A model generated the notes under the pieces. The model searched no databases and was not told the DNA's origin. It worked only from the letters and a program-made list of their open reading frames with translations. From a virus: a stretch of DNA of 64,000 bases. The position numbers and the translations under genes were made by a program. Where the stretch lies: IMG/VR virus record IMGVR_UViG_3300032240_002557, positions 1-64,000 of that record; one strand, given 5' to 3'. Below are positions 4,334 through 32,382 of this stretch, one piece after another; position 1 is the first letter of the stretch, and every line of letters starts with the position of its first letter.

Positions 4334-6058
4334 TTAATTAGTTGTATTAATTATAGCCTTTTTGCTCTTCATATTAATTTCAGTATTGTACGTAATAGGA
4401 ATCGTTTTTCTGATATCAATATTAACAGAAGAAAGTTTATTTAAATCCGCTCCTCTGTCATAGTACAAACCAGCTCTATCATTCCATCCGCCGCCAATAA
4501 TAACTATTTCATCTTTATCAAAAATAATATCACCAAATTCATCTAAACCTAAAACTATAGATTTTTTAGGATCTGTATCAGGAAGCGTTTCTACGCTCTT
4601 AGCATAGATCTCATTCTTTTCTGAGATGAAGAATACAGTAACGGAATCAACGCCAGAAATAGACTCTACAATAGCAATTAAATCAGATCTAGGTATTCTA
4701 TCTCTTCTTCTGATGCTTAAGAAATAAGAACTTAAAGAATCAACAATTTGTCCTTTGACAGTATCGGGATCATATCCTTCAAAGATACTAATTAAAACAT
4801 TAACAACGTACCTAGATATTGTAGGATCTATAATCTTAACTTCTGTCGTAACTATCTTTTGCCCGCTTTCTTCCACAACTTGTAAAAGTCTAGTTTTTTC
4901 TGTATCGCTAAGAATGAACGATGTTTCTTTTATATCAAAATACGTCTCACTAGTCTTAAGCGTTTTATTAATATCCGGAACTAATAAAACATATATTATA
5001 TTATCATCGTCCAAATACTGATCATCAAAAGTTGAAAATGCTTCTATAATAGAAAAAGTACCAAACTTCTCAAAGAACGTTATGTAATTTTCAGCATTAG
5101 CAAGAACATATGATCTTGATGTTTTGGGTGCAAGTATTCTGGTTAATTCGATAGATTCTTTATCGGTACCTAACTGAGGAGCTGTAATACAACTTATTTT
5201 AAGAAATTCGTTTAAGGACACACTATTCCCAAAAGAATCAGTAGCTTGATCGTTAAATTCAAATGTTATCTTGTTTGGTTCAATTGCATTTATATTTCCA
5301 TTTGATCCAACAGTCTCTAAATATTGAACTTGTATAGTAGATCCTAAAGCTGGTGTTTTTCCAAAATTTACCGTTCCAAAAATAACATCAATACCGTTGG
5401 ATATTCCGGTTTTAACTAAGCATCCTTTGTAATCGTATGGAATATCATAAAGTGAATCATAAACCTTCCATTCCTCACTATCAACAAATACTTTAACCTC
5501 AAAATTATCAATTGCTGAAGTTACTCTATCTGATATGTTATAGCTTTGTAAAAGATTACCATTACCTGTGAAAGAAGATGTTTTTATTGTCCCTTCCATA
5601 ATCTCACATGTAACATAAGAAGAATTATTTAAATTAATTCTCGTATAATCTTGCTTGGTGTTTAGAACATAATTTGTACCCCCATTAGAAAACATCAATT
5701 TAGCATATTTAGGAATTAGAATAGCTGATCCCCCAACTGAGGAAGAATCTGTTCCGTTCCATGTTATTTTAACTTGACCTCTAGCAGCAGTACTTCTTGA
5801 AGCATTATGACCGGTTAGTGCTGCTAATCCATAAACAGAGCTTTCTCTGGTTGCACTTTGTATGTTTAATTCAGTAATTGAATCCTCTATAAAGAATAGA
5901 ATTAATTGGCTTAAGTTTTGAAGAACAAACAGAATCTGTCCCCATGCTGATGCAACTGTAAAAAGTTGATTAGCCTGGTTATATCTTTTTTGTATGAGCT
6001 CAAGAGTGTCCTGCAATAGGTCCTGTATCTTAGCCCGATTTTTTTTAAATAAATCCAT
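4334..6058 (-). CDS. 6: Baseplate wedge protein, gp6-like (J-like family)
   Basis: This 574-residue protein resembles T4 gp6, which forms the inner ring of the baseplate with gp25 and gp53. The N-terminal 130 residues carry the helical start and the ATRESSVYGLAALTG segment typical of gp6/J-like wedge proteins, where aligned chains read a similar R-x-S-x-hh-x-LA pattern. The rest is a mixed alpha/beta body ending in a beta-rich domain. T4 gp6 is 660 residues, so the length is close. It follows gp25 by 3 bases, the same order as in T4. Start at ATG 6058 is the only good one in that spacing. Confidence 0.8.
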   Translation of the reverse strand: MDLFKKNRAKIQDLLQDTLELIQKRYNQANQLFTVASAWGQILFVLQNLSQLILFFIEDSITELNIQSATRESSVYGLAALTGHNASRSTAARGQVKITWNGTDSSSVGGSAILIPKYAKLMFSNGGTNYVLNTKQDYTRINLNNSSYVTCEIMEGTIKTSSFTGNGNLLQSYNISDRVTSAIDNFEVKVFVDSEEWKVYDSLYDIPYDYKGCLVKTGISNGIDVIFGTVNFGKTPALGSTIQVQYLETVGSNGNINAIEPNKITFEFNDQATDSFGNSVSLNEFLKISCITAPQLGTDKESIELTRILAPKTSRSYVLANAENYITFFEKFGTFSIIEAFSTFDDQYLDDDNIIYVLLVPDINKTLKTSETYFDIKETSFILSDTEKTRLLQVVEESGQKIVTTEVKIIDPTISRYVVNVLISIFEGYDPDTVKGQIVDSLSSYFLSIRRRDRIPRSDLIAIVESISGVDSVTVFFISEKNEIYAKSVETLPDTDPKKSIVLGLDEFGDIIFDKDEIVIIGGGWNDRAGLYYDRGADLNKLSSVNIDIRKTIPITYNTEINMKSKKAIINTTN

Positions 6059-6061
6059 GTT

Positions 6062-6433
6062 TTAAATTACCTTTATTCCTAATATTGGGTCACCCTTAAT
6101 AGCAAATTCAATCACGCAACTATCTCTAGTTTCCCCTTTAAAAAATCCAAGTTGAAAGTCTACAGCCAGTATTCCCCTAGCAAATGGACAATAAGTATAT
6201 AATTGTAGATTTATTGCCTCCTGTAGTTCCCCCTGAGACACCTCAAAATCGAATATAAGAGATTCTAGGTCTATTCCAAAGAAAGGATCCCCAAGAACAG
6301 TTCCTGGCTTAGTAAGCATAATTTGCTTAATCATGCCTATAGCAGACTCCACAATATCATCTGTTTCTAGCTTATCCGCTTCGTAAAGTGGATCATCAGG
6401 ATTTCTAGGATATATGTCAACTATTTTGATCAT
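6062..6433 (-). CDS. 25: Baseplate wedge protein gp25 (GPW/gp25 family)
   Basis: At 123 residues this is near the length of T4 gp25 (132). It carries the family pattern around residues 35-60: a helix ending in LTKPGTVLGDPFFG, matching the T-x-PGer-x-x-P-x-FG core, followed by the long helix and the strand pair that form the lysozyme-like fold seen in GPW/gp25 proteins. Gp25 seeds sheath polymerisation at the baseplate. It sits just before gp6, as in T4. The upstream 47 bases hold an AT-rich stretch ending ATATATAGGGATA before the ATG, which may be a promoter but is not the common box found elsewhere here. Confidence 0.85.
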   Translation of the reverse strand: MIKIVDIYPRNPDDPLYEADKLETDDIVESAIGMIKQIMLTKPGTVLGDPFFGIDLESLIFDFEVSQGELQEAINLQLYTYCPFARGILAVDFQLGFFKGETRDSCVIEFAIKGDPILGIKVI

Positions 6434-6480: not shown

Positions 6481-7254
6481 TTAATTCCACTGTAAGAAAT
6501 AACTAGGTGTATTTTCAGATTTAATCATATCCATAACCTCGGTTCTCTCTGCTTGTCCAATTGATTGGATAGCAGCAGCATTGATAGTAACGCCTCCTGG
6601 TAATTGATAACCAAATGTCCCTAAAAGTCTTCCTATATTGATCTTAGCTTCTGCTAAAACATATCTAACGAACAGTTCATCGGAATAAAGGTTCTCATCA
6701 GGGATAGCAACGCAAACTCTTAACCCAACATCCACACCACCAACTGTTAATCCTGCTGCTGTTGTTCTATTTGGGTCTCTGCCTAAGATGGTTAATCTTT
6801 TAGTGTTTTTATTGAAATTAAAAGCAAAAGTAGTTAAAAGAAATGCCTTAGCTAAATCAAAGAATGAGTATAGGACTGTTCTATAAACAAGGTTGTCACC
6901 AACAAAAGGGCTAAGCATAAGTTCAGACCCTAAAAGTTTACTGTCTCCAAAGTCTTTATCGGGAGTACCTGTTAAACCAGCTCCACCAACTTCTCTAACA
7001 TCATAAACACTTATGATACAATCTGGTAGTTGAACTTGTCTGGTTTGAAGAAATGCAGGATGTGAAAAAAGTTGAGCACCTAAAATCATAATTCGATCCT
7101 CAACAGCATATTGATAATTATCATAAAAATAAGCTTTAGCTCTTTTTATTATCCTTTTTATTTCTTGATCGTTTAAGGCATACGGTAAAGCACAGGAATG
7201 AGAAATATCATCTTTAACTTCTTGTATTAGAGCTTCTTCTGTTGTAGTTGCCAT
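6481..7254 (-). CDS. Virion structural protein, possible neck/connector protein
   Basis: This 257-residue protein begins with a helical N-terminus (residues 15-50, rich in Lys/Arg and aromatic residues) and continues with a LPDCIISVYDVREV strand motif near residue 80 and several more strands. This plan, helices then a beta sandwich, is seen in neck and head-tail connector proteins of T4-like phages, and the size fits T4 gp14 (256). The resemblance is to the general plan only. It is the last gene before gp25 and follows the amidoligase-like gene with a 2-base gap. A baseplate role is equally possible. Confidence 0.45.
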   Translation of the reverse strand: MATTTEEALIQEVKDDISHSCALPYALNDQEIKRIIKRAKAYFYDNYQYAVEDRIMILGAQLFSHPAFLQTRQVQLPDCIISVYDVREVGGAGLTGTPDKDFGDSKLLGSELMLSPFVGDNLVYRTVLYSFFDLAKAFLLTTFAFNFNKNTKRLTILGRDPNRTTAAGLTVGGVDVGLRVCVAIPDENLYSDELFVRYVLAEAKINIGRLLGTFGYQLPGGVTINAAAIQSIGQAERTEVMDMIKSENTPSYFLQWN

Positions 7255-7256
7255 CT

Positions 7257-8714
7257 TTAATTTTTATTTTTAAAAAGCTTATTAACTAAGAATGATGGTT
7301 TAGAATTATTTAAATCATCAAACCCGGTTAATGCTCCTTTAGAATCGTTATAGTTCCTATCAGCGAATATGTTGCCTCTAAGCATTTTTTCTCCTTTACC
7401 TTTTCCTTTACTTTTTCCATCAGCAGCATTGGATATTATCTCTGTAGTATCTGAAATATAAGCAAGAGAGGTGATATATCCAGATCTAATAACGCCACCA
7501 GTAACTTCACAGCTTATTTCTTTGTCCCTAGAATCTATGTACGAATTTATGACTGTATTACTTGGACCAAGTGTACAGTCTATGATTTTAGAGTCTTTAA
7601 TATTATTATGCATAACGGCCTCGCAATCTTCAAATTGGCAATTTTTAAATTGGCTACCAAATAATCTGCAATTAGCTATATTACCTTCTATTTCACATTC
7701 TATTAGATCTAAATCTTTTAGCATGCTTGCAACCTGGGTCTTACCGTCTTTTAATTGGTATCTAGAAATCTGGGTATCGTAATTCAAGAATCCTTCAGTT
7801 ATACCATTTTCAACTATTAAAGAATACAGCAAATGCCTCATCTCGTTGAAGTATGTTTTAATTATTTGAAGATCTTCCCTTAAATCAACAGTAACGTGCA
7901 AATCTTTATAGTTCATCATAAATGATTCTGCATCAATAAATGTCTCAGTCTCTTTGTAGATCTTTGAAATTAATTCGCTCAGTATTTCTGTTTCTTTTTG
8001 ATTTAAAGTATCGTTATCTAAAATGGAGGAGAAAGTATGTGTTATGACATAATCTATAACTTCTTTTATCTCAGTGTACTTCTTTTGATAATCCGTACCA
8101 CCCATGTATCTAACCTCCATGTATCCATCTTCAAGCTTTGTTAGATTAATGCCCATGTTTTTTTCTGTATAAACAGTATAGGCATTTCTATCCCCAAGAA
8201 TATTTCTATTTCTACGAATGAATTTATTTGCTGGAATAATTCTCTTAATAGATTTTGCATATAAAGATCCCCTTCTTTCTGGGAATCTTTTCCAAATATA
8301 TTCTTCGTCAAATCCTAAAACGAATTTCAAAGGATTTAAATTGCCAAACTCAATAAGTGTTGGATATTTGTTTCTATCAAAACTTAAACCAAATTGAAGA
8401 GCGCATCTTTCACTAGTGTATCCATTATCGTCTATCCATTTAAGGATTCTGATTAAAACCGGAATGGCCTCAAAATAATCCATCGGACCAGTTATAAGCT
8501 CGACCATCTTAAGTCCGCCTGAAAAATCTGGTTCTAACTTAAAAATATCACGAGTTGGGGAAAATTTAGAGTGGTATTTTCTAAAGACTTTTACCTGTTT
8601 CCCTAAATCTTCCCCAATTTTTTCAGCTATCTCATCTCTAGAAAAGGATGACATAAACTCGAATTCAAATCCGATTTTAGCTGCGTAATAAAAATTTTGA
8701 TCAAGTATTTTCAA
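7257..8714 (-). CDS. Amidoligase-like protein with C-terminal pentapeptide-like beta region
   Basis: Residues 10-120 look like the amidoligase/glutamate-cysteine ligase (COOH-NH2 ligase) fold: an N-terminal IGFEFEF strand giving the E-x-E metal motif, a D-x-SGG-x-KM-x-ELITGP segment with the conserved Asp and Glu, and a C-ALQFGLSFD strand standing where family members read CG-x-HVH. These enzymes join an amine to a carboxylate using ATP. Residues about 330-400 carry short repeats of the CxFxxCxF/IxDC kind, suggesting a small right-handed beta helix. The C-terminus is basic and Gly/Lys-rich. The gene overlaps the S1-like gene by 14 bases and lies inside the tail module. The histidine of the HVH element appears replaced, so activity is uncertain. 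Confidence 0.5.
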   Translation of the reverse strand: MKILDQNFYYAAKIGFEFEFMSSFSRDEIAEKIGEDLGKQVKVFRKYHSKFSPTRDIFKLEPDFSGGLKMVELITGPMDYFEAIPVLIRILKWIDDNGYTSERCALQFGLSFDRNKYPTLIEFGNLNPLKFVLGFDEEYIWKRFPERRGSLYAKSIKRIIPANKFIRRNRNILGDRNAYTVYTEKNMGINLTKLEDGYMEVRYMGGTDYQKKYTEIKEVIDYVITHTFSSILDNDTLNQKETEILSELISKIYKETETFIDAESFMMNYKDLHVTVDLREDLQIIKTYFNEMRHLLYSLIVENGITEGFLNYDTQISRYQLKDGKTQVASMLKDLDLIECEIEGNIANCRLFGSQFKNCQFEDCEAVMHNNIKDSKIIDCTLGPSNTVINSYIDSRDKEISCEVTGGVIRSGYITSLAYISDTTEIISNAADGKSKGKGKGEKMLRGNIFADRNYNDSKGALTGFDDLNNSKPSFLVNKLFKNKN

Positions 8715-9825
8715 TTTTTTGCTTTAAATAGAGTTTAGAACTCTGTAGCTCGACGTCCAAGACTGTGCAATCTAGTTCTTCACCGACTTCATAATCTTTT
8801 GGATTCTTAGCTAAATAGTCCCTTTCGACCAGTCCTGTGATGTTATTCTCGAGTTTTACGAAGACTCCAAAATTCTTCACTTTAGTGACTGACCCTCTAT
8901 ATATTTTATTTTCTCTATCTTCCGATAAAGATACGTCCCTAAGTTCTTGTAAATCCTTATCTTTTCCTTCCGGCGGGTTTAATTTCAAAACTATTCTACT
9001 AGGATTTCTGAAATCAGAAACAAAGAATGAGATAGATTGACCCGGATTTAAATCCATTTTGATACCAGCATTCTGGAATTCTTCTGCCGGGATTAATCCA
9101 GTATAGTACTCGTCCCACTCAACAAATACACCAGCAGGTGAAGTACCTGTAGCAGTACCTGTATATTTTTGGGTCAATGATAATTCTTCAACCTTAGCAT
9201 TAATAACGTTCTTAAGGTATTTCTTAAAGGAAACAACAAAAATGTCTCTCTTTTCATCATACGTCTCAATCATTACATTCAAAGTTTTGCCTACAAAAGA
9301 AGAAAAATCTATAATTCTATTAGCAGCTGCCAATGATCCAGGAAGGAAACATTTAATACCGGAAAGATTCACCATAAATCCGCCAGGACATGTTGAATCA
9401 ATTCTAACAGTATATGCACTGTTTTCGTCTTTGATTGCTTTAAGAAGTTCGGTTTTTAATGAATTCTCATAGCCGGAAGCTAACGATCCATTATAAGATC
9501 CGCTCTTATCTTTAAAAATAACAACATCTAAATTATATCCCTCAACTACTTCTAATTCAGGAAATCCTAATCTTTTAATTGCTTTCTTTTCTTTTGTTAA
9601 ATCAATAGCAACAGATTGACCTAATGATGTTTCTCCGATTGCTTGATCTCCTCTAATTTGCGTAATAGTGACGTTTAGCACCTGATTCTCTTCTAATTCT
9701 TTGGAAGAAAATCTTGACATATCTTCTCCAAAGTTTTTGGTAAAGTTTCCTTCGTAGAGGTTATCCATGAAGGCTCTTTCCTCAGGAGAGTATACGTCTC
9801 TTGTGTACTGTCTTTGCCTAGCCAT
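8701..9825 (-). CDS. S1-domain repeat RNA-binding protein (ribosomal protein S1-like)
   Basis: This 374-residue protein is built of about four OB-fold S1 units, at roughly 47-115 (degenerate), 137-201, 218-285 and 306-370. The second has the typical GGF-x-V-x-h-x-G-x-x-x-FLPGS core, the third GVFVEW-x-x-x-x-GLIP, the fourth NFGVFVKL-x-x-x-x-GLV. Each ends with a basic-hydrophobic strand (FVVSFKKYL, SRIVLKL, SKLYLKQ). S1 domains bind single-stranded RNA; cellular S1 loads mRNA on the 30S subunit. The placing inside the baseplate operon is odd and hints that it may be virion-associated or a late translation factor. The N-terminal 45 residues are a helical extension of unknown role. Confidence 0.8.
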   Translation of the reverse strand: MARQRQYTRDVYSPEERAFMDNLYEGNFTKNFGEDMSRFSSKELEENQVLNVTITQIRGDQAIGETSLGQSVAIDLTKEKKAIKRLGFPELEVVEGYNLDVVIFKDKSGSYNGSLASGYENSLKTELLKAIKDENSAYTVRIDSTCPGGFMVNLSGIKCFLPGSLAAANRIIDFSSFVGKTLNVMIETYDEKRDIFVVSFKKYLKNVINAKVEELSLTQKYTGTATGTSPAGVFVEWDEYYTGLIPAEEFQNAGIKMDLNPGQSISFFVSDFRNPSRIVLKLNPPEGKDKDLQELRDVSLSEDRENKIYRGSVTKVKNFGVFVKLENNITGLVERDYLAKNPKDYEVGEELDCTVLDVELQSSKLYLKQKIENT

Positions 9826-9846
9826 TTTTTTTTTGTTTTTTGTTGG

Positions 9847-12800
9847 TTAATTTATTTTTATTTTAGTACCAAATCCTAAATTAATTTCAAGATCAGGGAG
9901 GGGATAAAATAATTTACCCGCACCCAGAAAAAATTTGAATCCTCCAGAAATATCTGCTGCTGATCTTAAGAATTCATCAAGAAAAACAACAAAGAAAGGA
10001 TTCTTTAAAGACATTCTATCCCATCTAGGAATATCATCTCGATTATAAAGAGGATTTATAATATCCAGAACATTCCTTCCCATCATTGCTGCTACTGGCC
10101 AAGGTATATTATAAATCAGTGAATTTTGTATCTCTTGGATTGGTTTTATAATCGAGGAAGGTATAGGAACTTTTGGAACCATTTTATATTTGGTCCAAAG
10201 GAGAGTAAATGCTATATCAGAAAAAGGGTGAACTGGCATAAAGCTCATAGTAAGTTCAGTAAAATCTTGGGGTCTAGCAGTTAGTGGTATACTTGGAATA
10301 TTTTCTATTGCAGGGATTTTAGCATTTTTAGTAAAATTTGTTGCAATATTTTTACTCATCGATTTAATGTCATCTGCAGTAAGATCTTGAAAAGAATCAA
10401 GCCCACCCGGTAGAATTTTATTAACATCAATAGAATCTACAATAGGATTCATTCCTTCGACTAAAAAATTGCTAATAACTTTGCCTGGTATAGGTATCTG
10501 TGGAATCCCGCCAATTCCAAGGGGCATTCCAGGATTGCCACTCTTTTTGGGCGGGAAAGCTGGTATTTCTAAAGAAGAAGAAAATCCTTTTAGATCCTTT
10601 GCTATACCAGCAGCACTTGCAGGATTAGGAATACTAAATTTTTTAAGATCTACAGGAAAGCTTGAAAGAGATTTATTCATAGTATTTTTTACTATGAGCT
10701 TAAGATCCTTCTGTCTTAATATTTTATTTTCACCAATAGCAGTATTCTTAATTAAATTAGAAAGATCTTTAGAATTTAAACTAATGCTTTTAGTTAAATG
10801 CGACTTTAAAGAATCAACAACCGGATTTGGTATTTCTTTCAAAGATCCCACTTCCGCTATGGATTCCCCACCAATTTTAGGTATTGGATTTAGATTTGGT
10901 TTAAATGACAACAAAGACTTAGAACTTAAAGGAGAGTCTTTTGAATTAAGATAATTTCCAACAGTTTTAGAAACAAGGCTGTTCATCTTTTGAAGATCTT
11001 TTTCATTTTTTGAAATGTCAGAAAGTTTATTATCAAACGATGCAACTATTTTTGAATCAGCAGATAATCTTTTATTCTTATCAGAAAAAATTGGATCTTC
11101 TGGTATTTTTATGCCATCTATTTTACTTAGTATTCTAGAATGCAAATTTATAACAGGCACTTCTGGAATTGTTCCTAATTTCTTCTTAGTATTAATGTCT
11201 TGAATTGCTTTAATTGGAGATGGGATTTCTGCTATTAAATTTTTAGAATTCTTAGGAAATACCATATCAGGAAGATCTATAGAATTTTTTAAATGTTCTT
11301 TTATTGTTTCTTTTATTGCGGACTCCTTTAAATCATTAAAACTTTTAGAAACAGAATCTAATTGCTTTTTCTTTTCATTGTAAGCTTCGGACCCTTCTAT
11401 TGCCCTGTTTCTTTTTAATTCAAGTGCTTGTGATTCTAAATCTTTTTTCTTTTTAGCTATAGCATCTTGCACTTTTTGTATTTTAGAAAAATCAACATTC
11501 TTTTGGACATTTGTTAATTGTTTTTCAACATTGGAAAGAACCTCCTGTAGTAATCTTGCTGGGGAATCTATGTTACCTCCGCCGATTGTTCCAAAAGAAA
11601 AAAGGTAATTAGGAATACCTGATGATAAGAATTTTTTATAATTTTCAAGCGGATCTGGAATAGTAGGATCAGATTTTCTAGGAACAAATCTGAATCCTCT
11701 CATCCCTAAAAGAAATATAGATGTTCCTGTTAAAAAATCATGAAAGAAAACTAAAGGACTAGGCATGAAGCCACCGATGAAAGGAATGAATATAACCATC
11801 AGTCCTATTGGTAGAGGTATGACAACAGGATCTACTTTAGTCCACACCATCGGCATAGGAATTCTGATAAAAGGTAATCCATCGAGGGGATTAACTATTG
11901 GGGGTGGTAACGGAATGAACGAAGGAGGAAGATAACCGACTGGCCAGTATTTCATACCAAGATTGGGCAAAAATAGAGCTGGATTTTCTATAGGGGGAAC
12001 ACCATTTAGCATAGGTAATAGCCCAACATTATTAGCTTTTTTTGAAAACTCTTTCCAGTAACATTTAGTATAAAACGTGGGGCAATCAACAGATCCATGA
12101 TTTGCACATGGGCCTCTACCCCCGTCAAGTAGTGATCCAGCAGATCCACAGCAATCAGACGGACATTGAACCTTAACACCTGGATTATCCGGGCCACATT
12201 TAATAGATGCTGCTCTTGCTGAAAGAGAATCGCTAGAGTTTTTCTGTTCTAAAACCTGAATGGATTCTCCAACTGACATCAGTAAATCTTTTATTTGATT
12301 TACTCTTTGATCTACACCATCAGATATCTCTTTTAATCCTTTTGATGTATCACCAAGTCCACTTCCTAGAACTATATAATAATCTGTTAAATTATCTATG
12401 AAAGAATCTGATATCTTTTTAATTTCATTTATTTTAGAATCGACATCTTTCTTTTTTTCCGTATATTTTTTATTCCATGCTGTTTTATAATCACCCCAGA
12501 AACTACTAAATTCTTTATTAGGATGTCCTTCTTTGTCTGTGCTAATAGGTTTAAGCTCTTCAGTCTTTCTAGCATCATTATCTCCCCTTTCTGCAGGGGT
12601 AAAGAATAACCAAGGACTTGCAGAGGACTCTAACAGATTTGAATATAAAAATCCATGATCATCCTCTATAGATTTTAATATTGCATCTTTTGGCTTATTT
12701 GAATTTTGAACGTCACTAACAAAAGAGAAAAAATCAGTTTTAGTTTTAGGATTTTCATCTTTTATAGTGATAAAATTTTTATAAGATTTTAAAAAAAGAG

Positions 12801-14145
12801 TACTTCCTGATCCTAAAATTCCATCCTTAGAAAATTCCATCCCCAATTGAACTTTAGTTATATCAACACTTTGATATGTATCAGATAAAAGTTCGCTGGT
12901 TGAATCTGATTTTATTGTTTCATATTGAATGGTCTTACCGAGACCTATAGAATATGATATTGAAAAATTAATACCAATATATCCTGATAAAGAAACATCA
13001 CTGCCATTAAATCTTGTAGAAAAGGACTTTAAAGAATTAACAAAAGATAAACTTTTGGCTTTTATAGTTAAAGAATTCCAGAGTTTAGCATCTATCTTTT
13101 TTTTGTTTTTTATCTTCTGGTCGTAAGCAGAGGATAATCCATTATAAAAATTTTGAATTATCGTATAGTGATATAGTAATTCTTCTAATTCTTTTTCAGC
13201 TTTTTCGTTTCTAGATTTAAGTTCGTTGTTACTCCTAATATCTTTAAATATTCCTTTAGCTTGAGCAAGGGTTTGGTTTATACACTTAGTAGTATCTTCT
13301 ATATTAACTTCAGGTGCAACCGGTGCTTCAGGTGTTTCTGGCTCAGGATCGCATATATTCTGAATAAATGATTTAAGGTCTTCTTCGGTGAATAAAGGTT
13401 CACCAGTTTCTGGATTTATAGGTATACTTGGTTCACAAAAAACCTCATCAACGATATCATCAAGATTGTTTAAATTCTTATTCTCTGCATCTCTATCTAA
13501 TAGGTCTTGCAACGACTGAAGCATTGCATTTTCATCTATTGTCGCTTGTTTACATTTTCCTAATGAAGGTGTTAGTCTATCTTTAATCTTATCTATGATA
13601 GATTTTAAATCCAATTTAGAAGGGGCAACGTGAAAGAATAACGGTATCCCTTTATTTGTTATAACGTGAATTTCAAATTTAAAAGGACCGATATTAAAAA
13701 TCCTAACTTTTCTATTAGAACCAGAAAATTTAATTCCTATTCCATCTAAATCTAAATTATCAGAAACCATTTCTTTTGCAGAATTAAGTTCTGTTTCTAA
13801 GCCCTTTTTAATCAGAAAATTATCAAATGCTCTATTGGTTGTAAAATCTGGTGTTTCTGTTATTTTATTAAGATATCCCTGTCTTCCCAATATTATCCAA
13901 AACATTCTATTAGCCAATTCCTCACCAGAGTATGAACAAAGAAGATCGTTTATGTCATCATCATTTAATATCAAAGGAACGGGTTTAATTGAATCCTCTA
14001 GTTCTTTACCATTTGCTATAATTTCTTCGTCGCTAGGAATAGGATCAGACGTTCCTTGTAGCATACCAGCAGCATCTTGTGGTGACATTTTACCGCTTTT
14101 AATCTGATCTAATATGTCCTGGAGTTTATCCGATTTTACTTCCAT
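9847..14145 (-). CDS. Very large tail/baseplate structural protein (1432 residues), role unknown
   Basis: The longest complete gene in the window. Several zones can be seen: an acidic N-terminus; a small beta domain near residues 120-190; coiled-coil stretches near 300-350, 560-600 and 870-960; a seven-cysteine cluster near 650-697; a hydrophobic, proline-rich zone near 713-825 with runs such as PLPIGLMVIFIPFIGGF; long Ser/Lys/Asn-rich linkers; and another hydrophobic-aromatic zone at the C-terminus. It sits next to the spike and hub genes, so it may be a hub, tape-measure or injected protein. I could not match it to a T4 gene. The 21-base gap to the S1 gene makes co-transcription likely. Confidence 0.55.
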   Translation of the reverse strand: MEVKSDKLQDILDQIKSGKMSPQDAAGMLQGTSDPIPSDEEIIANGKELEDSIKPVPLILNDDDINDLLCSYSGEELANRMFWIILGRQGYLNKITETPDFTTNRAFDNFLIKKGLETELNSAKEMVSDNLDLDGIGIKFSGSNRKVRIFNIGPFKFEIHVITNKGIPLFFHVAPSKLDLKSIIDKIKDRLTPSLGKCKQATIDENAMLQSLQDLLDRDAENKNLNNLDDIVDEVFCEPSIPINPETGEPLFTEEDLKSFIQNICDPEPETPEAPVAPEVNIEDTTKCINQTLAQAKGIFKDIRSNNELKSRNEKAEKELEELLYHYTIIQNFYNGLSSAYDQKIKNKKKIDAKLWNSLTIKAKSLSFVNSLKSFSTRFNGSDVSLSGYIGINFSISYSIGLGKTIQYETIKSDSTSELLSDTYQSVDITKVQLGMEFSKDGILGSGSTLFLKSYKNFITIKDENPKTKTDFFSFVSDVQNSNKPKDAILKSIEDDHGFLYSNLLESSASPWLFFTPAERGDNDARKTEELKPISTDKEGHPNKEFSSFWGDYKTAWNKKYTEKKKDVDSKINEIKKISDSFIDNLTDYYIVLGSGLGDTSKGLKEISDGVDQRVNQIKDLLMSVGESIQVLEQKNSSDSLSARAASIKCGPDNPGVKVQCPSDCCGSAGSLLDGGRGPCANHGSVDCPTFYTKCYWKEFSKKANNVGLLPMLNGVPPIENPALFLPNLGMKYWPVGYLPPSFIPLPPPIVNPLDGLPFIRIPMPMVWTKVDPVVIPLPIGLMVIFIPFIGGFMPSPLVFFHDFLTGTSIFLLGMRGFRFVPRKSDPTIPDPLENYKKFLSSGIPNYLFSFGTIGGGNIDSPARLLQEVLSNVEKQLTNVQKNVDFSKIQKVQDAIAKKKKDLESQALELKRNRAIEGSEAYNEKKKQLDSVSKSFNDLKESAIKETIKEHLKNSIDLPDMVFPKNSKNLIAEIPSPIKAIQDINTKKKLGTIPEVPVINLHSRILSKIDGIKIPEDPIFSDKNKRLSADSKIVASFDNKLSDISKNEKDLQKMNSLVSKTVGNYLNSKDSPLSSKSLLSFKPNLNPIPKIGGESIAEVGSLKEIPNPVVDSLKSHLTKSISLNSKDLSNLIKNTAIGENKILRQKDLKLIVKNTMNKSLSSFPVDLKKFSIPNPASAAGIAKDLKGFSSSLEIPAFPPKKSGNPGMPLGIGGIPQIPIPGKVISNFLVEGMNPIVDSIDVNKILPGGLDSFQDLTADDIKSMSKNIATNFTKNAKIPAIENIPSIPLTARPQDFTELTMSFMPVHPFSDIAFTLLWTKYKMVPKVPIPSSIIKPIQEIQNSLIYNIPWPVAAMMGRNVLDIINPLYNRDDIPRWDRMSLKNPFFVVFLDEFLRSAADISGGFKFFLGAGKLFYPLPDLEINLGFGTKIKIN

Positions 14146-14151
14146 CTAAAT

Positions 14152-14931
14152 TTAATTGCTCTTTGTTACTTTAACTACGTCTGATGTTGATAGCTGCTCA
14201 TAGCTTTCAGCTAAACTTGACATACAACCGGGGGTTGAAGGGAGTTTAGCATCTATCGCAGAAGCCATCTGTTTTAAAAACATCCAAAGGGGTTCGGCTA
14301 AAACTGCAGAGTATACCGGGGAGTGCCCAAGTTTAGTTACCTTGCCATCTACCCAAACCTCATTACTGCTTTGTTTAATTCTAGTTGTTGCAGTGCTTTC
14401 AATTTCAGAATTTGCAAATTCTGTTATCTTACCTCCTCTAAATTCTAAAGTACAGGATTGACCAGCATGTGTAATAGTTATTGAATTGTCATTAGATATG
14501 ACAACAGACGAATCTTTTAAATCTATTGTTAATCCCTTTGCAACTGTATAGAATATTTTAAGATTTTCTATCCCGTCATAAATTAAAGAATGAGCTCCCT
14601 CGTATGAATTTTTTAATTCGTCTATTAAATCCTGAGAAAGTTCTTGGACAGCTTTGTATTCTGGTGCATAGTAGTTTCCGTTATTAAATTGAACGTGAAC
14701 TATAGCACCGTTTTTAGGAATGCTTACTCTCCCGGATCCACCATAATCTCCAAAAGAAATATCAAATCTTTGAAAAGCCCATGGTAAATCCTCATCAGCA
14801 ACCTCATCAAAAACACCAAATACTCTTACTCTGCATCTAGCTCTGAATTCTGGATCTTTATTATCAACCACAACACCTAAAAAATGTTGTGCTCTTTCTA
14901 TATTAGATTCCTGTAAATTATTTAAAGACAT
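14152..14931 (-). CDS. 5: Central spike protein, gp5-like (OB fold plus beta helix, no lysozyme domain)
   Basis: The first ~100 residues form a gp5/VgrG-type OB domain: FLGVVVDNKDPEFRARCRVRV, then DLPWAF, GSGRVSIPKNGAIVHVQF and NGNYYAPEY, the last two being hallmark strands of the family. Residues about 120-200 are short repeats of T/S/D-rich strands (ITITHAGQSCTLEF, ITEFANSEI) consistent with a trimeric beta-helical needle. T4 gp5 carries a lysozyme domain between these parts; here there is none and the chain is only 259 residues. The C-terminus after residue 205 is helical. It lies 6 bases before the large protein and after the tube-like protein. Confidence 0.75.
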   Translation of the reverse strand: MSLNNLQESNIERAQHFLGVVVDNKDPEFRARCRVRVFGVFDEVADEDLPWAFQRFDISFGDYGGSGRVSIPKNGAIVHVQFNNGNYYAPEYKAVQELSQDLIDELKNSYEGAHSLIYDGIENLKIFYTVAKGLTIDLKDSSVVISNDNSITITHAGQSCTLEFRGGKITEFANSEIESTATTRIKQSSNEVWVDGKVTKLGHSPVYSAVLAEPLWMFLKQMASAIDAKLPSTPGCMSSLAESYEQLSTSDVVKVTKSN

Positions 14932-24940: not shown

Positions 24941-25174
24941 ATGGAAAAATACGGATATAAAAACATCAGCACAAGAAGCGAATTTGAACAAGCTTCAGCA
25001 AAAGACGGTAGTCATTCTTTTTCTTATAACTCTGGAGATCATGTAGGTAATTACGGATTTATTAATTGGGGCGATCAGAATCAATGGGGATCACCGGGTC
25101 AATCTAAATATTCGGTTAAGACTGTAGATCAATTACTAAATGCGGGTAAAACTGTTTCAGAAACTTCTAAATAA
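24941..25174 (+). CDS. Small Gly/Ser/Asn-rich protein
   Basis: This 77-residue protein, rich in Gly, Ser, Asn and aromatic residues, has no recognised domain. A purine run AAAAGGAG stands 2 bases before the ATG, closer than an ideal ribosome-binding site. Its last 8 bases overlap the end of the convergent glycosyltransferase gene. It may be the last gene of the short plus-strand operon. Confidence 0.45.
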   Translation: MEKYGYKNISTRSEFEQASAKDGSHSFSYNSGDHVGNYGFINWGDQNQWGSPGQSKYSVKTVDQLLNAGKTVSETSK

Positions 25175-26552
25175 AATCTCTAATTCTTTGATCTAATATT
25201 ACGTCTGCTTCTTCAACGTTTTGCATTCTTCCATGAAAACCAAAACATGTTCCGAGTGTGTGAAATTCATCAATCTTATTTTCAACACCAAAGATTTTAG
25301 CAAGTTCTAATGGAGCTATTTTTAATCCAGATACTAATAATTCTTTTCTGTTATTTACTACTAGGAGATAATCCTCATTCCCACCTGGGTACCACTCAAG
25401 TGTTTTTCCAAATTCAAGAAGTTTTTTACTTCGAAGAGAAATGCCGCCACTACCCACTTCCGCATTAGGGATTCCGAGCGGAGGTTCAGGCCAAGGACAT
25501 CCAATGTAGTCATAATTAAAAAATTCATCTGTCCAAAATTCAGGATTTAAAGGATATCCATCATCTTGGAATGTTAAGCAAAAATCAGTATTAATGTAAT
25601 TAGGAAGGTTATAAATTATGAATTTATTATATTCTTCATAGGATACAGGATCTATTTTTATATGTTTAATTCCTTCTATTCCAGGATCAAAAGGACTTAC
25701 AAATATAATTTCTGCAAATTCAAATCTTTCTTTAAGATATTTAAAGATTTTTTTATATCTATTAGGAATATAATAATCCTTAATTTTTTCTTCAGGTCTA
25801 CCCTCCATACAAAAAGCAGTCACATTAGGAAGTTTTAATTTTTTAATTTCCAGCAATGGATCGTAATTAAGATTATTAATCTTCTCCTTAATGAAAGATT
25901 CTGCTATTTCTAATAATCCATAATTTCTGCCATGAAATCCAAAGCATCTATACAGATTATGAGCTTCGTCAATAGGTTGTTCAACTGCAAATATTCTTGC
26001 AACATCTAACGGAGCTATTTTAATTCCAGCATCTATAGTTTTTTTCCTTCTACTTCTTAGAACAAAGCTGTCCTCGTTTTCACCGTTATGATAAGGCAGG
26101 GTTGAACAGTATTTTAAATATTTTTTACTTCTTAAAGAGAATCCCCCGCCTCCAACCTTTTCTATATTACCGCCTGCAAATAAACTATCAGGCCAAGGTG
26201 TTCCTATGTAATCATAATTAAAGAAACGATCGTCCCATAAATCTGGATTGACTATAAATCCATCATCTTGAAATATTAGGCAGTAATCTGTATCAATGTA
26301 ATTATGTAATTGATATAAACAAAATTTACTATACTCTTTATGAGTCATAGTATTATGAGAAATGAACTTAACCCCCGGTGCTTCAAATTTAAAATTACCA
26401 ATAATCTTAATATCACCAAAATCTATGAATTTTTGCATGAAAGATACTATTAACTTATATCTCTCCCTAGCGCCTAATTGTATATCAAGATGATCATCAG
26501 GTCGTGCGTCTATGCATATTGCGGTAACTCTTCTAAGATCTAGCTTTTTCAT
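25167..26552 (-). CDS. Tandem-duplicated DUF5672-type glycosyltransferase
   Basis: Two similar halves can be seen, about residues 1-215 and 225-461. Each has CLIFQDDG/CLTFQDDG with the acidic metal-binding pair, then NPDLW or NPEFW, FFNYDYIG and PW, then a VG-GGGFSLRSKK or VGSGGISLRSKK strand, and ends with CFGFHGR. This is the pattern of DUF5672, a GT-A-like glycosyltransferase family usually found as a single domain. Both halves keep the QDDG and HGR elements, so both may be active, perhaps adding two sugars. It is the last gene of the sugar operon, one base from gmd. Confidence 0.75.
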   Translation of the reverse strand: MKKLDLRRVTAICIDARPDDHLDIQLGARERYKLIVSFMQKFIDFGDIKIIGNFKFEAPGVKFISHNTMTHKEYSKFCLYQLHNYIDTDYCLIFQDDGFIVNPDLWDDRFFNYDYIGTPWPDSLFAGGNIEKVGGGGFSLRSKKYLKYCSTLPYHNGENEDSFVLRSRRKKTIDAGIKIAPLDVARIFAVEQPIDEAHNLYRCFGFHGRNYGLLEIAESFIKEKINNLNYDPLLEIKKLKLPNVTAFCMEGRPEEKIKDYYIPNRYKKIFKYLKERFEFAEIIFVSPFDPGIEGIKHIKIDPVSYEEYNKFIIYNLPNYINTDFCLTFQDDGYPLNPEFWTDEFFNYDYIGCPWPEPPLGIPNAEVGSGGISLRSKKLLEFGKTLEWYPGGNEDYLLVVNNRKELLVSGLKIAPLELAKIFGVENKIDEFHTLGTCFGFHGRMQNVEEADVILDQRIRDFI

Positions 26553-27557
26553 TTACTTAAGAGATTCTGCTATCATCTCATCAAATATATCTGATAGAGA
26601 TAATTTTGGTTCCCAATGTAACACCTCTTTTGCTTTAGAAGCATCACCTTGTAGGAGTTCAACTTCAGCTGGTCTATAATATTTAGGATCTATTCCTATA
26701 ATAATTCTACCTGTAGATTTATCTATACCTATTTCTCTTTCGCCTCCGCCTTTCCAATCAAGATCAATTCCTAGTTTATCACAAACTATATTAACCATCT
26801 CTTTAATAGAATAGGTCTTGCCTGTAGCTAGCACAAAATCTTCTGGAGATTCTAGTTGTAACATCCTCCACATGCCTTCTACGTATTCTTTTGCATGCCC
26901 TATATCTCTTCTAGCTGAAAGATTACCCAATGTTAGTATATCGACCTTTCCTTTCTTGATCTGACAAAGCGAATCAATAATTTTCTTCTCAACAAAATTT
27001 TCACCTCTGCGGGGAGATGTGTGATTGAAAAGAATTCCGTTGCATGCAAATAAATTATAGGATTCTCTATAGTTCTTAACAATCCAATATCCGTATAATT
27101 TAGCAACACCATAAGGGGATCTAGGATAAAATGGGGTTGTTTCTCTCTGAGGTGTTTCCTGAACTTTTCCATAAAGTTCAGAGGTAGAAGCTTGGTATAA
27201 TTTAGAATTTGGAGAATGTGTTCTGATTGCTTCTAAAACATTTAAAGTTCCCATCGCATCTACTTGCCCTGTATAATTAGGAATGTCAAAAGAGATTTTA
27301 ACATGGCTCTGTGCACCTAGATTGTAAATCTCATCAGGTTTTAATTCTGAAATTATATGAGACACGTTTCCCGAATCTGTTAAATCCATATAATGTCTTT
27401 TAAAATTAGGATGTTCCCTGAAATGCTCTATCCTTCCAGAATTAAAAGATGATGATCTTCTGATTGTACCATGCACATCATATCCTTTATCTAGAAGTAA
27501 TTCAGCTAAATAAGATCCATCTTGTCCATTTACCCCTGTTATTAAAGCTCTTTTCAT
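26553..27557 (-). CDS. gmd: GDP-mannose 4,6-dehydratase
   Basis: A short-chain dehydrogenase of 334 residues, near the usual ~345-370. Near the N-terminus is [15 protein letters not shown] (residues 8-22), the GxxGxxG NAD(P) site in the form typical of GMD; the Ser-Thr pair at 124-125 and Tyr149-x-x-x-Lys153 ([12 protein letters not shown]) complete the catalytic set; [12 protein letters not shown] and [13 protein letters not shown] are GMD-specific. It turns GDP-D-mannose into GDP-4-keto-6-deoxymannose. The stop of the upstream fucose synthase overlaps its start by 4 bases. Phage copies exist but are uncommon. Confidence 0.95.
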
Positions 27558-28489
27558 TTTCTAATTTTATCTTTATTATCCCAATACCATTTTACTGTTT
27601 CAGCTATTCCTGTTTCCAAAGAAAAATTAGGTTTCCATCCCATTGAATTAATCTTGGAATTATCCATTACTTTTCTAGGTGTTCCGTCCAATCCTTCCGT
27701 GTCAAATAGAATTTCTCCTCTATAATCAATCACGTGTGCAATAATACCAGCTAGATCTTTTATTGTCACTTCCGATCCGCTTCCTAAATTAATTAATCCA
27801 TATTCTAATTTATTGTTTTCTAATATATGAATAATACCATCAGCAAGATCATCAATATAAAGAAACTCTCTTAAAGGTTTTCCTGTTCCTAATAATTTAA
27901 GGGTCGGTTCATTATTATCTCTAGCAGTCTCTATTTTTCTAATCATTCCAGGAATAACATGTGATGCTTCAATATCAAAGTTATCTCCAGGTCCATACAG
28001 ATTACAAGGCATAACAGAGAAGTAATTCTTTCCGTATTGTTCTCTAATAGAATCGCACATTTGAATTCCAGCAATTTTTGCTAGAGCATAGGATTTATTA
28101 GTTTTCTCTAAAGGACCAGTTAATAGGTATTCCTCCTTAATCGGTTGTGGGCATTCTCTTGGATAAATGCACGAAGAACCAAGAAACAAAAAATTGCTAA
28201 CATCGCTTTCAAAAGCTGACATGATTACATTATTCTGGATAGTCAGATTTTCATAAAGAAATTCTGTTGGATATTTAGAATTTGCTACAATACCTCCAAC
28301 CCTTGCTGCTGCAAGAATTGCATACTCAACTCTGTTTTCAAAAAACCAATCAAGTACTTTCTCCCTATTAAATAGATCTAATTCTTTCCTAGTAGGTGCA
28401 TAGACATGATATTTTTCCTGATCTATCTTTTTTAAGATATTAGAACCAGCTAATCCAGTTGATCCGAATATTGCAATTTTCTTTTTCAT
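27554..28489 (-). CDS. fcl: GDP-L-fucose synthase
   Basis: The 311-residue protein has the Rossmann GSTGLAGS (residues 9-16), SSCIYP (105-110) and Tyr134-x-x-x-Lys138 (SYALAKIAG), and [12 protein letters not shown], all typical of GDP-4-keto-6-deoxymannose 3,5-epimerase/4-reductase (WcaG/Fcl). It gives GDP-L-fucose from the GMD product with NADPH. It overlaps gmd by 4 bases. With the GT10 enzyme upstream in the same operon, it completes a path from GDP-mannose to a fucosylated acceptor. Confidence 0.93.
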
Positions 28490-28501
28490 CTAATTTATAT
28501 T

Positions 28502-29188
28502 TTAATACTCCATCATTTCTCTGCCGCTTTTTGGCCAGCCTTCACCGTGATGAACATCCTTTAAATCCATTGGTAAGAATTTATCAGCAAGATCTTTGCG
28601 GCAATAGAATAAGTTTAATCCGCCAGTATTTGCTACAAGAATGTAACCTTTTTCATCGGCAAGCTTGTTAAAAGCACCAGCAGTTGCGCCGTAGTAATCA
28701 TCATAATTAAATCTATGATTTGGATCATAAGCTATAGTTAAGCTTTGTTCTGGACTATAATGTGGATTATATTCGGCAATAACAAATTTTGGATTGTAAT
28801 TTTTTAAGGATTTCCAGATCCATAAATCATTACCATCAACATCTATAGAAAGAACGTCGAAATCTTTAGGTATTTCTGTTTGTGATAAAAGATCGTCTAA
28901 CGATTCTCCTGGTTCACAGCTAACATAAGATTGGATAGGGACAACATCAGTCCTATCAATAAAACCATTTTTTAGATTATCAAAAGATTCTTGATCTCCC
29001 TCTATTAAAACACCAGACCATCCTTTATCTCTTAAATTTCTGGTATTAGATATCCAGTAACCATCACCGGCACCAAATTCACAGTACCATCCCCTTTCAA
29101 TTCCTAGCTCTTGAAATGCTTTCTCTATTATTCCATCTTCGCCAGATTGGCTATGGATCTTTTTTGAATATTCGTTTAGATTTATCAT
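28502..29188 (-). CDS. FkbM-like methyltransferase
   Basis: The N-terminal part has WYCEFGAGDGYWISNT, a motif-I-like Rossmann glycine loop, then GVLIEGDQESF with the acidic end of strand 2 that binds the ribose of S-adenosylmethionine. DFDVLSIDVDGNDLWIW is the mid-domain strand seen in FkbM-type enzymes that methylate sugar hydroxyls. Length 228 fits. Placed between GDP-fucose synthase and another methyltransferase, it likely decorates the sugar made here. Acceptor unknown. Confidence 0.75.
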   Translation of the reverse strand: MINLNEYSKKIHSQSGEDGIIEKAFQELGIERGWYCEFGAGDGYWISNTRNLRDKGWSGVLIEGDQESFDNLKNGFIDRTDVVPIQSYVSCEPGESLDDLLSQTEIPKDFDVLSIDVDGNDLWIWKSLKNYNPKFVIAEYNPHYSPEQSLTIAYDPNHRFNYDDYYGATAGAFNKLADEKGYILVANTGGLNLFYCRKDLADKFLPMDLKDVHHGEGWPKSGREMMEY

Positions 29189-29193
29189 AATTA

Positions 29194-29769
29194 TTATTTT
29201 TTAGGGTATATGAAAATACATCCTCTCATTGCTCCTGTAGCTATGGAATTGTATTCTTTAGTGTATTGATCTTCTCCGTAAATTGATTCTATTCTTTCTT
29301 TGATCCAATCCCAATCATAGGTTATACCTTGATCAGGATACACATCGTATCCAAATTCAGGATGATCCGGAACCATAAAATCGTGAATTGCAAGGATTGG
29401 TTTTTTTCCTGATTTTTTAATTGCATCAAGTTCATCTAATACGGGATTAGTATACCAATGGGCATCAAGAAATATGATTGTTTTATCTTCTTCGATAGAT
29501 TCTAAAACTTCTTCTAAGAATACTGGACTATCTTTTAGATTCATTTTGATATTTGGAATACTTCCAATCTTTTCAAAAGCTATCTCATAATGTTCCGGTT
29601 TTACTTCTACTGTATGGACAGTATCAAAATTATCAGAAAACCATTTAGTGGTAGTGCCGTGATAAGTACCTGTTTCGATAACAGTATTTAAATTAAAATT
29701 TGTTTTTATTTCTAAAAACTTTTCAGACATGTAATCGTCTTGGTTGAAAGCTCCGTTAGCAAAAATCAT
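29194..29769 (-). CDS. Class I SAM-dependent methyltransferase-like protein
   Basis: Residues about 28-60 read NTVIETGTYHGTTTKWF then TVHTVEVKPEHYEIA, a Rossmann motif I and II pair, and IIFLDAHWYTNP gives the later strand with acidic and aromatic residues seen in sugar and glycan methyltransferases. The chain is 191 residues. It starts 21 bases after its upstream neighbour, another GT-like gene, and is 5 bases from the FkbM-like gene. It could methylate a hydroxyl on the glycan; the exact family is not clear. Confidence 0.65.
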   Translation of the reverse strand: MIFANGAFNQDDYMSEKFLEIKTNFNLNTVIETGTYHGTTTKWFSDNFDTVHTVEVKPEHYEIAFEKIGSIPNIKMNLKDSPVFLEEVLESIEEDKTIIFLDAHWYTNPVLDELDAIKKSGKKPILAIHDFMVPDHPEFGYDVYPDQGITYDWDWIKERIESIYGEDQYTKEYNSIATGAMRGCIFIYPKK

Positions 29770-29790
29770 TTTATTTTTTTTATATTTAAT

Positions 29791-30429
29791 TTATTCTTCA
29801 GTATTAATAAAAAGATAAGGTTCTGAAATTCTATCCTCATCATTATATGTTCTATACTCTGATGTGTGATAATGGTACGACTTTATCGTTTTTGATGGAT
29901 TCCTAACAAGGTGTCCAGCCTTTTGCAGTTCAAAAGCTATCTTGTTATCACACCCGGGTATTCCTAATTTTATATCATAATCGCCAGGTATAATAGAATT
30001 TTTAAAAACCCAGGTATCCTGGCTATCCCATGTATCGTGATGAATGGGTTCTAACCCTGGTTTAAATTCCCATCTTGAAAGAGCAAATGCTTCTGTCGGT
30101 CTGAGTCTGGAATTCATCATCAAAACGTCTTCTGCTTTATAAAAAATATCACTATTTGATATTATCATTATTCCCTTATTCCTTCCAAGATGCTCTATTG
30201 CTATATCAAAAAGATTTTGATATGTTGGAATTTTTTCAATCCATTTAATTCTTATTTTCTTCCCAGCTGGTATTAATTCCCGGGGGGTTCCATTTTTTAT
30301 AACAAGAATGATTTTGTCTATTTCACAGTTTTTAAGATTCTGTTTAACACAATACCTTAACTCCTGATATCTTTCTGGATTATTCGGAATATAGAATTGG
30401 GTAACTAATATAATCTTATCTCTTTTCAT
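29791..30429 (-). CDS. Glycosyltransferase-like protein
   Basis: A 212-residue protein with GT-A-like strand order: an N-terminal KIILVTQFYIPNN strand and, near residue 95, IMIISNSDIFYKAEDV, where the S-x-SD resembles a DxD metal site; GCDNKIAFELQKAG and SYHYHTSEYRTY follow. It lacks a strict DxD. It lies between the GT10 fucosyltransferase (0-base gap) and the methyltransferases, so the same glycan is the probable target. Family not identified. Confidence 0.6.
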   Translation of the reverse strand: MKRDKIILVTQFYIPNNPERYQELRYCVKQNLKNCEIDKIILVIKNGTPRELIPAGKKIRIKWIEKIPTYQNLFDIAIEHLGRNKGIMIISNSDIFYKAEDVLMMNSRLRPTEAFALSRWEFKPGLEPIHHDTWDSQDTWVFKNSIIPGDYDIKLGIPGCDNKIAFELQKAGHLVRNPSKTIKSYHYHTSEYRTYNDEDRISEPYLFINTEE

Positions 30430-31272
30430 TTATAATTTTTTTATCTCTGTGTAGATATAATCGTCTCCAGATTTTAATCTTTTGACTCTTTCTAGATTAT
30501 CTTTAATATAATCTAATTTTGAGAGATATAAATCTTCGTCTAAATTTTCTATCGATGACAGATCCTCATAGAAGATAATTCCACCAGGATTGAAGTCTTC
30601 AACCACCTTTCTAGTTCCCCAGTAAACTGGAATTGTTCCGGTTGCAAAGCAATCTGTTATTTTTTCTGTGTAGTATTTGTCACAGATTACATTCTCAAAA
30701 ACAACAGAGAACATGTAATCTTTTAAAGCAGGAAGTTTAGATCTCCACCAATCGCCAGTTGGTCCAGACCCCTCTCCTATTCTAAGAGATCCGTGTGCAC
30801 CACCGAATAAGTCTATTTTATTTCTTAATTCTTTAGCAACGTCAAGTCTTAATTGGTGTCCGGTTGTTCTAGTTTTAGGAGAACATATCATAGAGCATAG
30901 CTTAGACTTAGTATATAAATTCATCTCTTCCCTCTTAGTCCAAGGCAGATTAGATCCTGGTGGAGCATAGATAAAAAATGGATCGCTCAATAGGCTCTCC
31001 TCACAAGTGAAGATCCTAGCATATCTGTCCTTATAATTAGGAAGATTTCTTTTAATAGATTCATGAACGTCTGGAATTATAGCAGGAGACTCACAAAGCC
31101 AGCCAAACTTTAGGTCATGTTTAGGGGTTTGTAAACCATCTATTACCTTTCCGTCTATATAAACATGGATATCAGAATCCTCTGATGTCCAAGAGAATAA
31201 ATCGGGCTTAAGATTAGAGCATGAAGAATATTCAGCAGGAAATGGCATTCCTATTCCTTTAATTAAATCCAT
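30430..31272 (-). CDS. GT10-family fucosyltransferase
   Basis: Residues 188-219 contain the GT10 (alpha-1,3/1,4-fucosyltransferase) signature: FSVVFEN then DKYYTEKITDCFATG and TIPVYWG, matching the FxFEN-x-x-x-x-x-Y-x-TEK-hh-x-hh-x-G-x-hPV-x-hG pattern of the GDP-fucose-binding lobe. A GGAHGSLR loop precedes it. I chose ATG 31272 (280 residues), which overlaps the upstream gene by 10 bases; a start 96 bases earlier would overlap by 106. GT10 enzymes use GDP-L-fucose, which the two genes downstream make. Confidence 0.85.
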   Translation of the reverse strand: MDLIKGIGMPFPAEYSSCSNLKPDLFSWTSEDSDIHVYIDGKVIDGLQTPKHDLKFGWLCESPAIIPDVHESIKRNLPNYKDRYARIFTCEESLLSDPFFIYAPPGSNLPWTKREEMNLYTKSKLCSMICSPKTRTTGHQLRLDVAKELRNKIDLFGGAHGSLRIGEGSGPTGDWWRSKLPALKDYMFSVVFENVICDKYYTEKITDCFATGTIPVYWGTRKVVEDFNPGGIIFYEDLSSIENLDEDLYLSKLDYIKDNLERVKRLKSGDDYIYTEIKKL

Positions 31273-32363
31273 GAATTTGAGATTGTTTTTATTTGAATCT
31301 TTCCTAAACCATTTCCGGTAAAAGTTAAAGAGTGTAATGGATTTCTCATCATGCTTATTTCGTCCCATATTTTAAGGTCCCATTTAGGTTGGATATCTTC
31401 TATATTGGAAACACTTAGAATAATTTCCCCGTAATCTGCTTTGATGTCTAAGAAATCGTCGCTAAAATAAATATTGCCTCCGCTTTCTATTTCTAGTTGT
31501 TTAAATCTAATATTCCCCGTATGAGAAGAAGCATCATTTAGAAAATAAAATTCTAATCTATTATAATTCGAAAAATTATCTAAAAAGTTTAAAGCGCAAG
31601 AAAATACATTTTTCTTTGTATCGTTAAATAGGACTTTGATTTTCTTTACCCCTGCAGTGTATCCATATCTAGTAGCATCATCAACATGAACCTTTTGATG
31701 AATTTCATTCTTACCCTCAACCCTAGAATTTCCGTTGACGATATATTTACCATTGACAAAATCATTCCAATTATCAGAAAGTAAGAAAACACTATATTGT
31801 CCATTTAAAACTGGTAAAACATAATGTTTAAGAGCGTCATGATCTAATTCATTAATACCTCTAACATAAGCTGCTCTTGTATGAACTACCCATTCTCTAA
31901 GAATTTTAAATGACCCTGGGGTATAGTTAAAATAAACGGGAGATGCCTTTATACCCTCCATATCCCCGCTATGTGTAGCAAGTCCTATATCTTCTTTGAT
32001 ATTATTAAATTGGCTAAAAGGAAGTTTAAAATCTGTATCGCAATCCATCCATATTAATGGTGCTCTGTATTCCTTAATTTTTTTTAGAATAAACTCGGGC
32101 TTCATTAAGCAATTAGCGCCATAGTTGGATCTTGATTCTAACTCTGAAATGTCATAGGTTACCCCAAATCTTTTACATTTATCTGCGAGAGAAAGAGCAA
32201 AGTTTTTATAATAATCGTTCTTCATGAAATCAGCATAAAAGCTAATTATTCTGATTTTCATTTTTTCAAAAATGACGGGGGCTTCATTAATTTTTTGACT
32301 TTTTACTGCAGGTTGTTCTTTATGTTGGCTATTAATGATCCTTCTTATCCTTTCAAAAGACAT
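31263..32363 (-). CDS. Glycosyltransferase-like protein with conserved MSFERIRR start
   Basis: After an N-terminal leader the chain shows a GT-A pattern: KIRIISFYADF, a helical segment, then APLIWMDCDTDFKLPF with a DxD metal site, as in nucleotide-diphospho-sugar transferases. The C-terminal ~150 residues are beta-rich and may bind carbohydrate. I chose ATG 32363 over the one 30 bases earlier because it gives the leader MSFERIRRI, almost the same as in the gene at 53607-54293, and because a TGATATATA box lies 20 bases before it. The earlier start would overlap the upstream gene. Confidence 0.65.
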   Translation of the reverse strand: MSFERIRRIINSQHKEQPAVKSQKINEAPVIFEKMKIRIISFYADFMKNDYYKNFALSLADKCKRFGVTYDISELESRSNYGANCLMKPEFILKKIKEYRAPLIWMDCDTDFKLPFSQFNNIKEDIGLATHSGDMEGIKASPVYFNYTPGSFKILREWVVHTRAAYVRGINELDHDALKHYVLPVLNGQYSVFLLSDNWNDFVNGKYIVNGNSRVEGKNEIHQKVHVDDATRYGYTAGVKKIKVLFNDTKKNVFSCALNFLDNFSNYNRLEFYFLNDASSHTGNIRFKQLEIESGGNIYFSDDFLDIKADYGEIILSVSNIEDIQPKWDLKIWDEISMMRNPLHSLTFTGNGLGKIQIKTISNSWI

Positions 32364-32382
32364 AACGATTTCTCTCTTTATT

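Follow-up and report, generated by a model that had tools for sequence, protein, structure and literature searches.

Ribosomal protein S1 is the feeder of messenger RNA to bacterial ribosomes. In E. coli, bS1 docks on uS2 through F5 and F9 of its N-terminal helix, K43 of the OB1 loop, which sits in a zinc pocket, and F79 (PMC10123108). The OB1-OB2 domains serve mainly ribosome binding, and the OB2 residues K117, F120 and F130 can face the mRNA (PMC10123108). S1 domains were left aside as ambiguous by Mizuno et al. (PMC6375957). According to Al-Shayeb et al., 2020, S1 proteins with up to six S1 domains occur in a few genomes of huge phages where Shine-Dalgarno (SD) sites are rare, a role in initiation was proposed, and true rpS1 was considered hard to confirm (PMC7162821). 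Huge phages with rpS1 and without SD sites have thus been known since that report. Another ribosomal protein, bS21, is expressed late with structural genes in phages (Chen et al., 2022; PMC9723584).

The S1 gene studied here lies at 8701..9825 on the minus strand of the window, i.e. the first 64,000 nt of the IMG/VR virus record IMGVR_UViG_3300032240_002557. It starts with ATG and encodes a 374 aa protein, for which the original prediction had proposed four S1-like RNA-binding domains. Profile searches verified the S1 motif: Pfam S1 (PF00575) matches three separate stretches of the protein (E 8e-17, 61.8 bits with a cut-off of 22), and NCBIfam rpsA (TIGR00717) aligns aa 38-368 with positions 10-341 of its 516 (E 8e-25). 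The latter match scores 87 bits and does not reach the equivalog cut-off of 577 bits, which mainly marks six-domain S1 because just 2/14 control genomes pass it. When the PDB was searched by sequence, the top match was E. coli bS1 (E 8e-19). An AlphaFold2 model built from an alignment of 41 sequences, the window protein and those from IMG/VR (mean pLDDT 80.6, pTM 0.54), contains an N-terminal helix at aa 14-31 followed by four OB barrels at about aa 47-114, 136-200, 217-283 and 305-370, in agreement with the predicted number of domains. Foldseek ranked bS1 on 30S mRNA-delivery complexes at the top for this model, and in the viral library phage proteins annotated as S1 came first. These results confirm that the domains are collinear with bS1 domains 1-4 (OB1-OB4) and exclude chance as the explanation of the similarity.

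The window is part of a linear record of 99,912 b with a GC content of 34%. T4-type portal, capsid, protease, terminase and sheath genes are present on this record, which is a fragment of a T4-type tailed phage; contigs of relatives whose S1 is 35-83% identical extend up to 219-430 kb. These genes, together with the separate clade formed by phage S1 (see below), rule out a contaminating bacterial contig. The minus-strand order around S1 is a 701 aa protein, the baseplate hub OB protein (14152..14931; PHROG 430, E 2e-14; Pfam Phage_base_V, E 5e-5), a 1432 aa protein at a conserved position (9847..14145), S1, a 485 aa partner (7257..8714), a head-tail adaptor Ad2-like protein (6481..7254; PHROG 211, E 1e-7), a gp25-like baseplate protein with a weak match but a conserved position (6062..6433; PHROG 261, E 0.007) and a gp6-like baseplate wedge (4334..6058; PHROG 219, E 4e-33), all encoded on the minus strand. 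The 1432 aa protein has no convincing family match among Pfam and PHROG profiles. The partner gene starts with TTG within the S1 gene, giving a 14 nt overlap, and this TTG is identical in 4/4 relatives checked; the relatives of its product resemble Amidoligase_2 below threshold (E 1e-3 to 2e-2). The original prediction assigned S1 to a late structural operon. The gene content agrees with this assignment, and we infer late transcription of S1 from the neighbouring genes.

Several other regions of the record drew our attention. Tandem portal-like genes at 62462-64144 and 64147-65742 of the contig (minus strand, the second beyond the window) are 48.5% identical over 505 aa, and the first matches portal PHROG 213. 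Beside the tail sheath gene, also beyond the window, tandem paralogues of ~190 aa (80812-81390 and 81400-81972, minus strand) share 51% identity and are possibly duplicated tail tube genes. Judged by eye, the block at 25167-32970 resembles nucleotide-sugar and glycosyl functions and includes a GDP-mannose 4,6-dehydratase-like protein (26553-27557), and the product of 37637-39076, which starts with MCGILIAHNP, is similar to glutamine-dependent asparagine synthetase.

The original prediction called for a search of related phages, and the gene proved to be conserved. In searches returning the best 80 loci per scan, which are fragmentary and partly redundant, the gene order around S1 was kept in 24 IMG/VR contigs (S1 identity 59-84%) and in at least 56 further loci with S1 identity down to 38%, some of which carry small insertions. 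To avoid selecting on S1, we searched in reverse from the 485 aa partner and the gp6-like protein. At least 148 loci contained S1 together with the partner (70 distinct S1, with some contigs counted twice), 7 loci were too short to judge, and no locus without S1 was found among the best 80 for each bait. A search with divergent gp6 agreed, as S1 was present in every listed locus spanning the hub-to-partner region, on contigs of up to 430 kb. In total, the searches gathered at least 111 distinct S1 sequences, and in every relative with enough flanking sequence S1 lies between the gene for the baseplate hub and that for the amidoligase-like protein. Its presence at every listed partner-gene locus with enough upstream sequence rules out a recent stray acquisition. 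The dN/dS of S1 in close pairs is 0.01-0.08, and the gene is under purifying selection; within the protein, conservation is highest in OB2, and the N-terminal helix ranks with the least conserved parts. Across the loci compared, S1 is an old core gene of a large phage group with an invariant late-gene position. It had been called unusual, which holds for phages overall, but within this group the gene is universal among adequately covered members, and S1 of huge phages had already been published.

More distant homologues were found by tblastn in LR756500 (462 kb), LR756501 (735 kb), LR745206, LR756502, LR756504 and Lak phages. S1 of LR756500 occupies the same tail-operon position as the window gene, and the more divergent copies in the 541-735-kb huge phages including Lak are located away from it. 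The gp6-like gene is present in 7/7 huge-phage records and the partner gene in 5/7, being missing from the two Lak records. In 4/5 huge-phage records carrying the partner (462-735 kb), it lies away from S1. A match to rpsA of an Acinetobacter 'phage' was set aside, since it is itself bacterial sequence (cmk-rpsA-ihfB).

In a tree with Bacteroidota, Gammaproteobacteria and Firmicutes S1, from which PhiMa05 bS1 was left out, 24/24 phage S1 fell on one side of a 100/100 branch, and all copies sampled from phages group in a single clade apart from the bacterial S1. This clade does not nest within the S1 of Bacteroidota, and its stem measures 2.75 changes per column. Since this stem and the branches of the Firmicutes outgroups are long, the donor phylum is not readable from the tree. 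A better hint of the donor comes from an N-terminal F[DN]W motif, which 72/73 Bacteroidota S1 carry at a near-fixed distance from the OB1 loop. The motif is absent from the window S1 protein in the alignment but is present in Lak, in L113 and in the marine relatives, a hint that S1 came from Bacteroidota.

We then compared the residues involved in docking and RNA binding. Numbering refers to the E. coli S1 sequence, with which database S1 sequences of Acinetobacter and Bacteroidota agree at the positions used. The Phe9 position is occupied by Tyr in 58/58 distinct S1 of the window clade and the phage S1 of 45-52% identity, as in Bacteroidota, and this aromatic Tyr is found in 7/8 farther phage S1. 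The OB2 residues Phe120 and Phe130 are retained or replaced by Tyr. In the window clade, however, K43, which makes the zinc-pocket contact, is changed to Gly, K117 to Pro or Asn and Phe5 to Met or Leu; the lysine at position 43 is retained in 5/8 farther phage S1. The canonical S1 histidine is missing from OB3 and OB4 of the window clade, as read from the alignment. With the aromatic residues at positions 9, 120 and 130 kept but the two lysines lost, docking of the window-clade S1 on uS2 is plausible, probably in an altered form.

The original prediction that the phage mRNAs lack good SD sites is borne out by the 99.9-kb record, where SD cores precede 1.2% of 82 genes compared with 5.2% after shuffling. 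The same scarcity was found in most groups of relatives. In the 45-52% subclade, SD-like motifs of tail genes reached 0.17 versus 0.06 after shuffling, an excess that may be explained by near-identical contigs counted repeatedly. The leaders of the record are A-rich and Bacteroidota-like. That of S1 itself, the 21 nt intergenic stretch at 9826..9846 (minus strand), is an SD-less A-run, with ACCAACAAAAAACAAAAAAAAA directly before the ATG. In F. johnsoniae, A at positions -12/-13 promotes initiation, and bS1 was speculated to bind it (PMC6847099). The host of the phage is presumably a member of the Bacteroidota.

These features are probably best explained by a late, ribosome-acting phage S1 that recruits SD-less late phage mRNAs to the host 30S subunit, with docking, mRNA selectivity and late timing all presumed. 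Steering of ribosomes to phage mRNAs had been suggested by the original prediction and, for huge phages, by Al-Shayeb et al. (PMC7162821). The late expression of phage bS21 (PMC9723584) and its occurrence in some S1 phages also speak for this reading. The phage S1 would be a bS1 reduced to OB1-OB4, the domains that dock on the ribosome and form the core of mRNA binding, and would be produced late alongside the tail proteins. Its N-terminal helix and OB1 would dock on uS2 of the host 30S, replacing or joining host bS1, and OB2-OB4 would capture phage mRNAs by their A-rich, SD-less leaders on the exit side of the platform. Such leader capture would favour the late virion proteins. The loss of K43 and K117, the changed Phe5, the weak conservation of the helix relative to OB2 and the missing histidine of OB3 and OB4 weigh against this reading. 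A general translation role alone leaves the fixed place among tail genes unexplained.

OB folds are common in baseplates, and S1 might have been repurposed as a baseplate or assembly component whose translation role is lost. The invariant neighbourhood of baseplate genes and the far stronger conservation of OB2 than of the docking helix would suit such a component. Nevertheless, we regard this as quite improbable, given that bS1, rather than any baseplate protein, is the nearest match in both sequence and fold, that the acidic multi-OB architecture is collinear with bS1, and that S1 is retained where the tail genes lie elsewhere. This retention in huge phages speaks for a protein that acts in trans rather than for a purely structural one. 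In the 541-735-kb phages, it also weighs against a virion-borne S1 that would sit close to the tail or baseplate and, once injected, would prime the host ribosomes as infection begins. Packaging was raised by Chen et al. for phage bS21 (PMC9723584) and would fit the constant position between the hub and adaptor genes, but for S1 we give it little credence.

The altered dock bears on another alternative, in which S1 acts outside the ribosome as a chaperone, stabiliser or regulator of phage mRNAs or of another RNA. Several roles of this kind are listed for host bS1 (PMC13157829), and Al-Shayeb et al. allow action 'on or off the ribosome' (PMC7162821). Docking features weakened by the loss of K43 and K117, beside a preserved aromatic surface of OB2 and OB4, are what such a factor might be expected to have. 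However, the protein retains the bS1-specific order of N-terminal helix, OB1 and OB2, and OB1-OB2 are mainly for binding the ribosome (PMC10123108); we therefore consider a role away from the ribosome unlikely. Starting from the late, ribosome-acting S1, a bolder scenario can be drawn, to which we assign a modest chance at best. A whole lineage of huge phages would already have owned S1 before its Lak, 735-kb and freshwater/marine groups diverged, and the window clade would have lost the zinc-pocket lysine. In this clade, S1 and its constant amidoligase-like partner would then constitute a late module of two genes. An S1 exchanged into host ribosomes, and possibly modified by the partner, would remodel them for the reading of phage mRNAs that lack SD sites.

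Because this phage S1 is conserved throughout its clade, it offers a well-defined gene, with both close and remote relatives, for probing what bS1 does in the SD-less initiation of Bacteroidota. Compared with bS1 of Bacteroidota, the phage protein shares OB1-OB4, the N-terminal helix and the aromatic residue at the Phe9 position, along with the F[DN]W motif in its marine, L113 and Lak relatives, whereas the window clade is devoid of OB5-OB6, has lost K43 and K117 and is separated from bacterial S1 by a very long branch. The jumbo cyanophage PhiMa05 also encodes bS1, but as one of six ribosomal proteins, and its authors grouped it with Vampirovibrio (PMC13157829); it is probably a separate acquisition. 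Phage bS21 is likewise a ribosomal protein, used by phages of Bacteroidetes and associated with late structural genes (PMC9723584), but it is a distinct protein present in only some of the sampled S1 phages. We found it in three contigs, G001 (S1 83% identical), G008 (52% group) and G012 (348-kb contig), and in 4/6 sampled huge-phage records. A regular pairing of S1 with bS21 is not supported, as bS21 was seen in only some genomes, several of which are fragments. In G001 (244,850 b), a close relative, a bS21 of 64 aa (Pfam E 6e-13) is encoded at L202:9947-10141. This locus lies outside the region of structural genes and not in the terminase/capsid region described by Chen et al.

The closest described proteins are the rpS1 of huge phages (LR756500, LR756501, LR745206 and Lak), which resemble the window S1 in length and domain order, come from SD-poor genomes and belong to the same clade. 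They differ in that S1 lies outside the tail operon in the records other than LR756500. The part of Al-Shayeb et al. available to us describes neither conservation across a clade nor a position in the tail operon nor the partner gene (PMC7162821). What the present analysis adds is the confirmed bS1 domain order, the single clade across the sampled phages and the status of a core gene in a large group, together with an invariant late-gene position in that group, a putatively altered dock and a constant partner gene.
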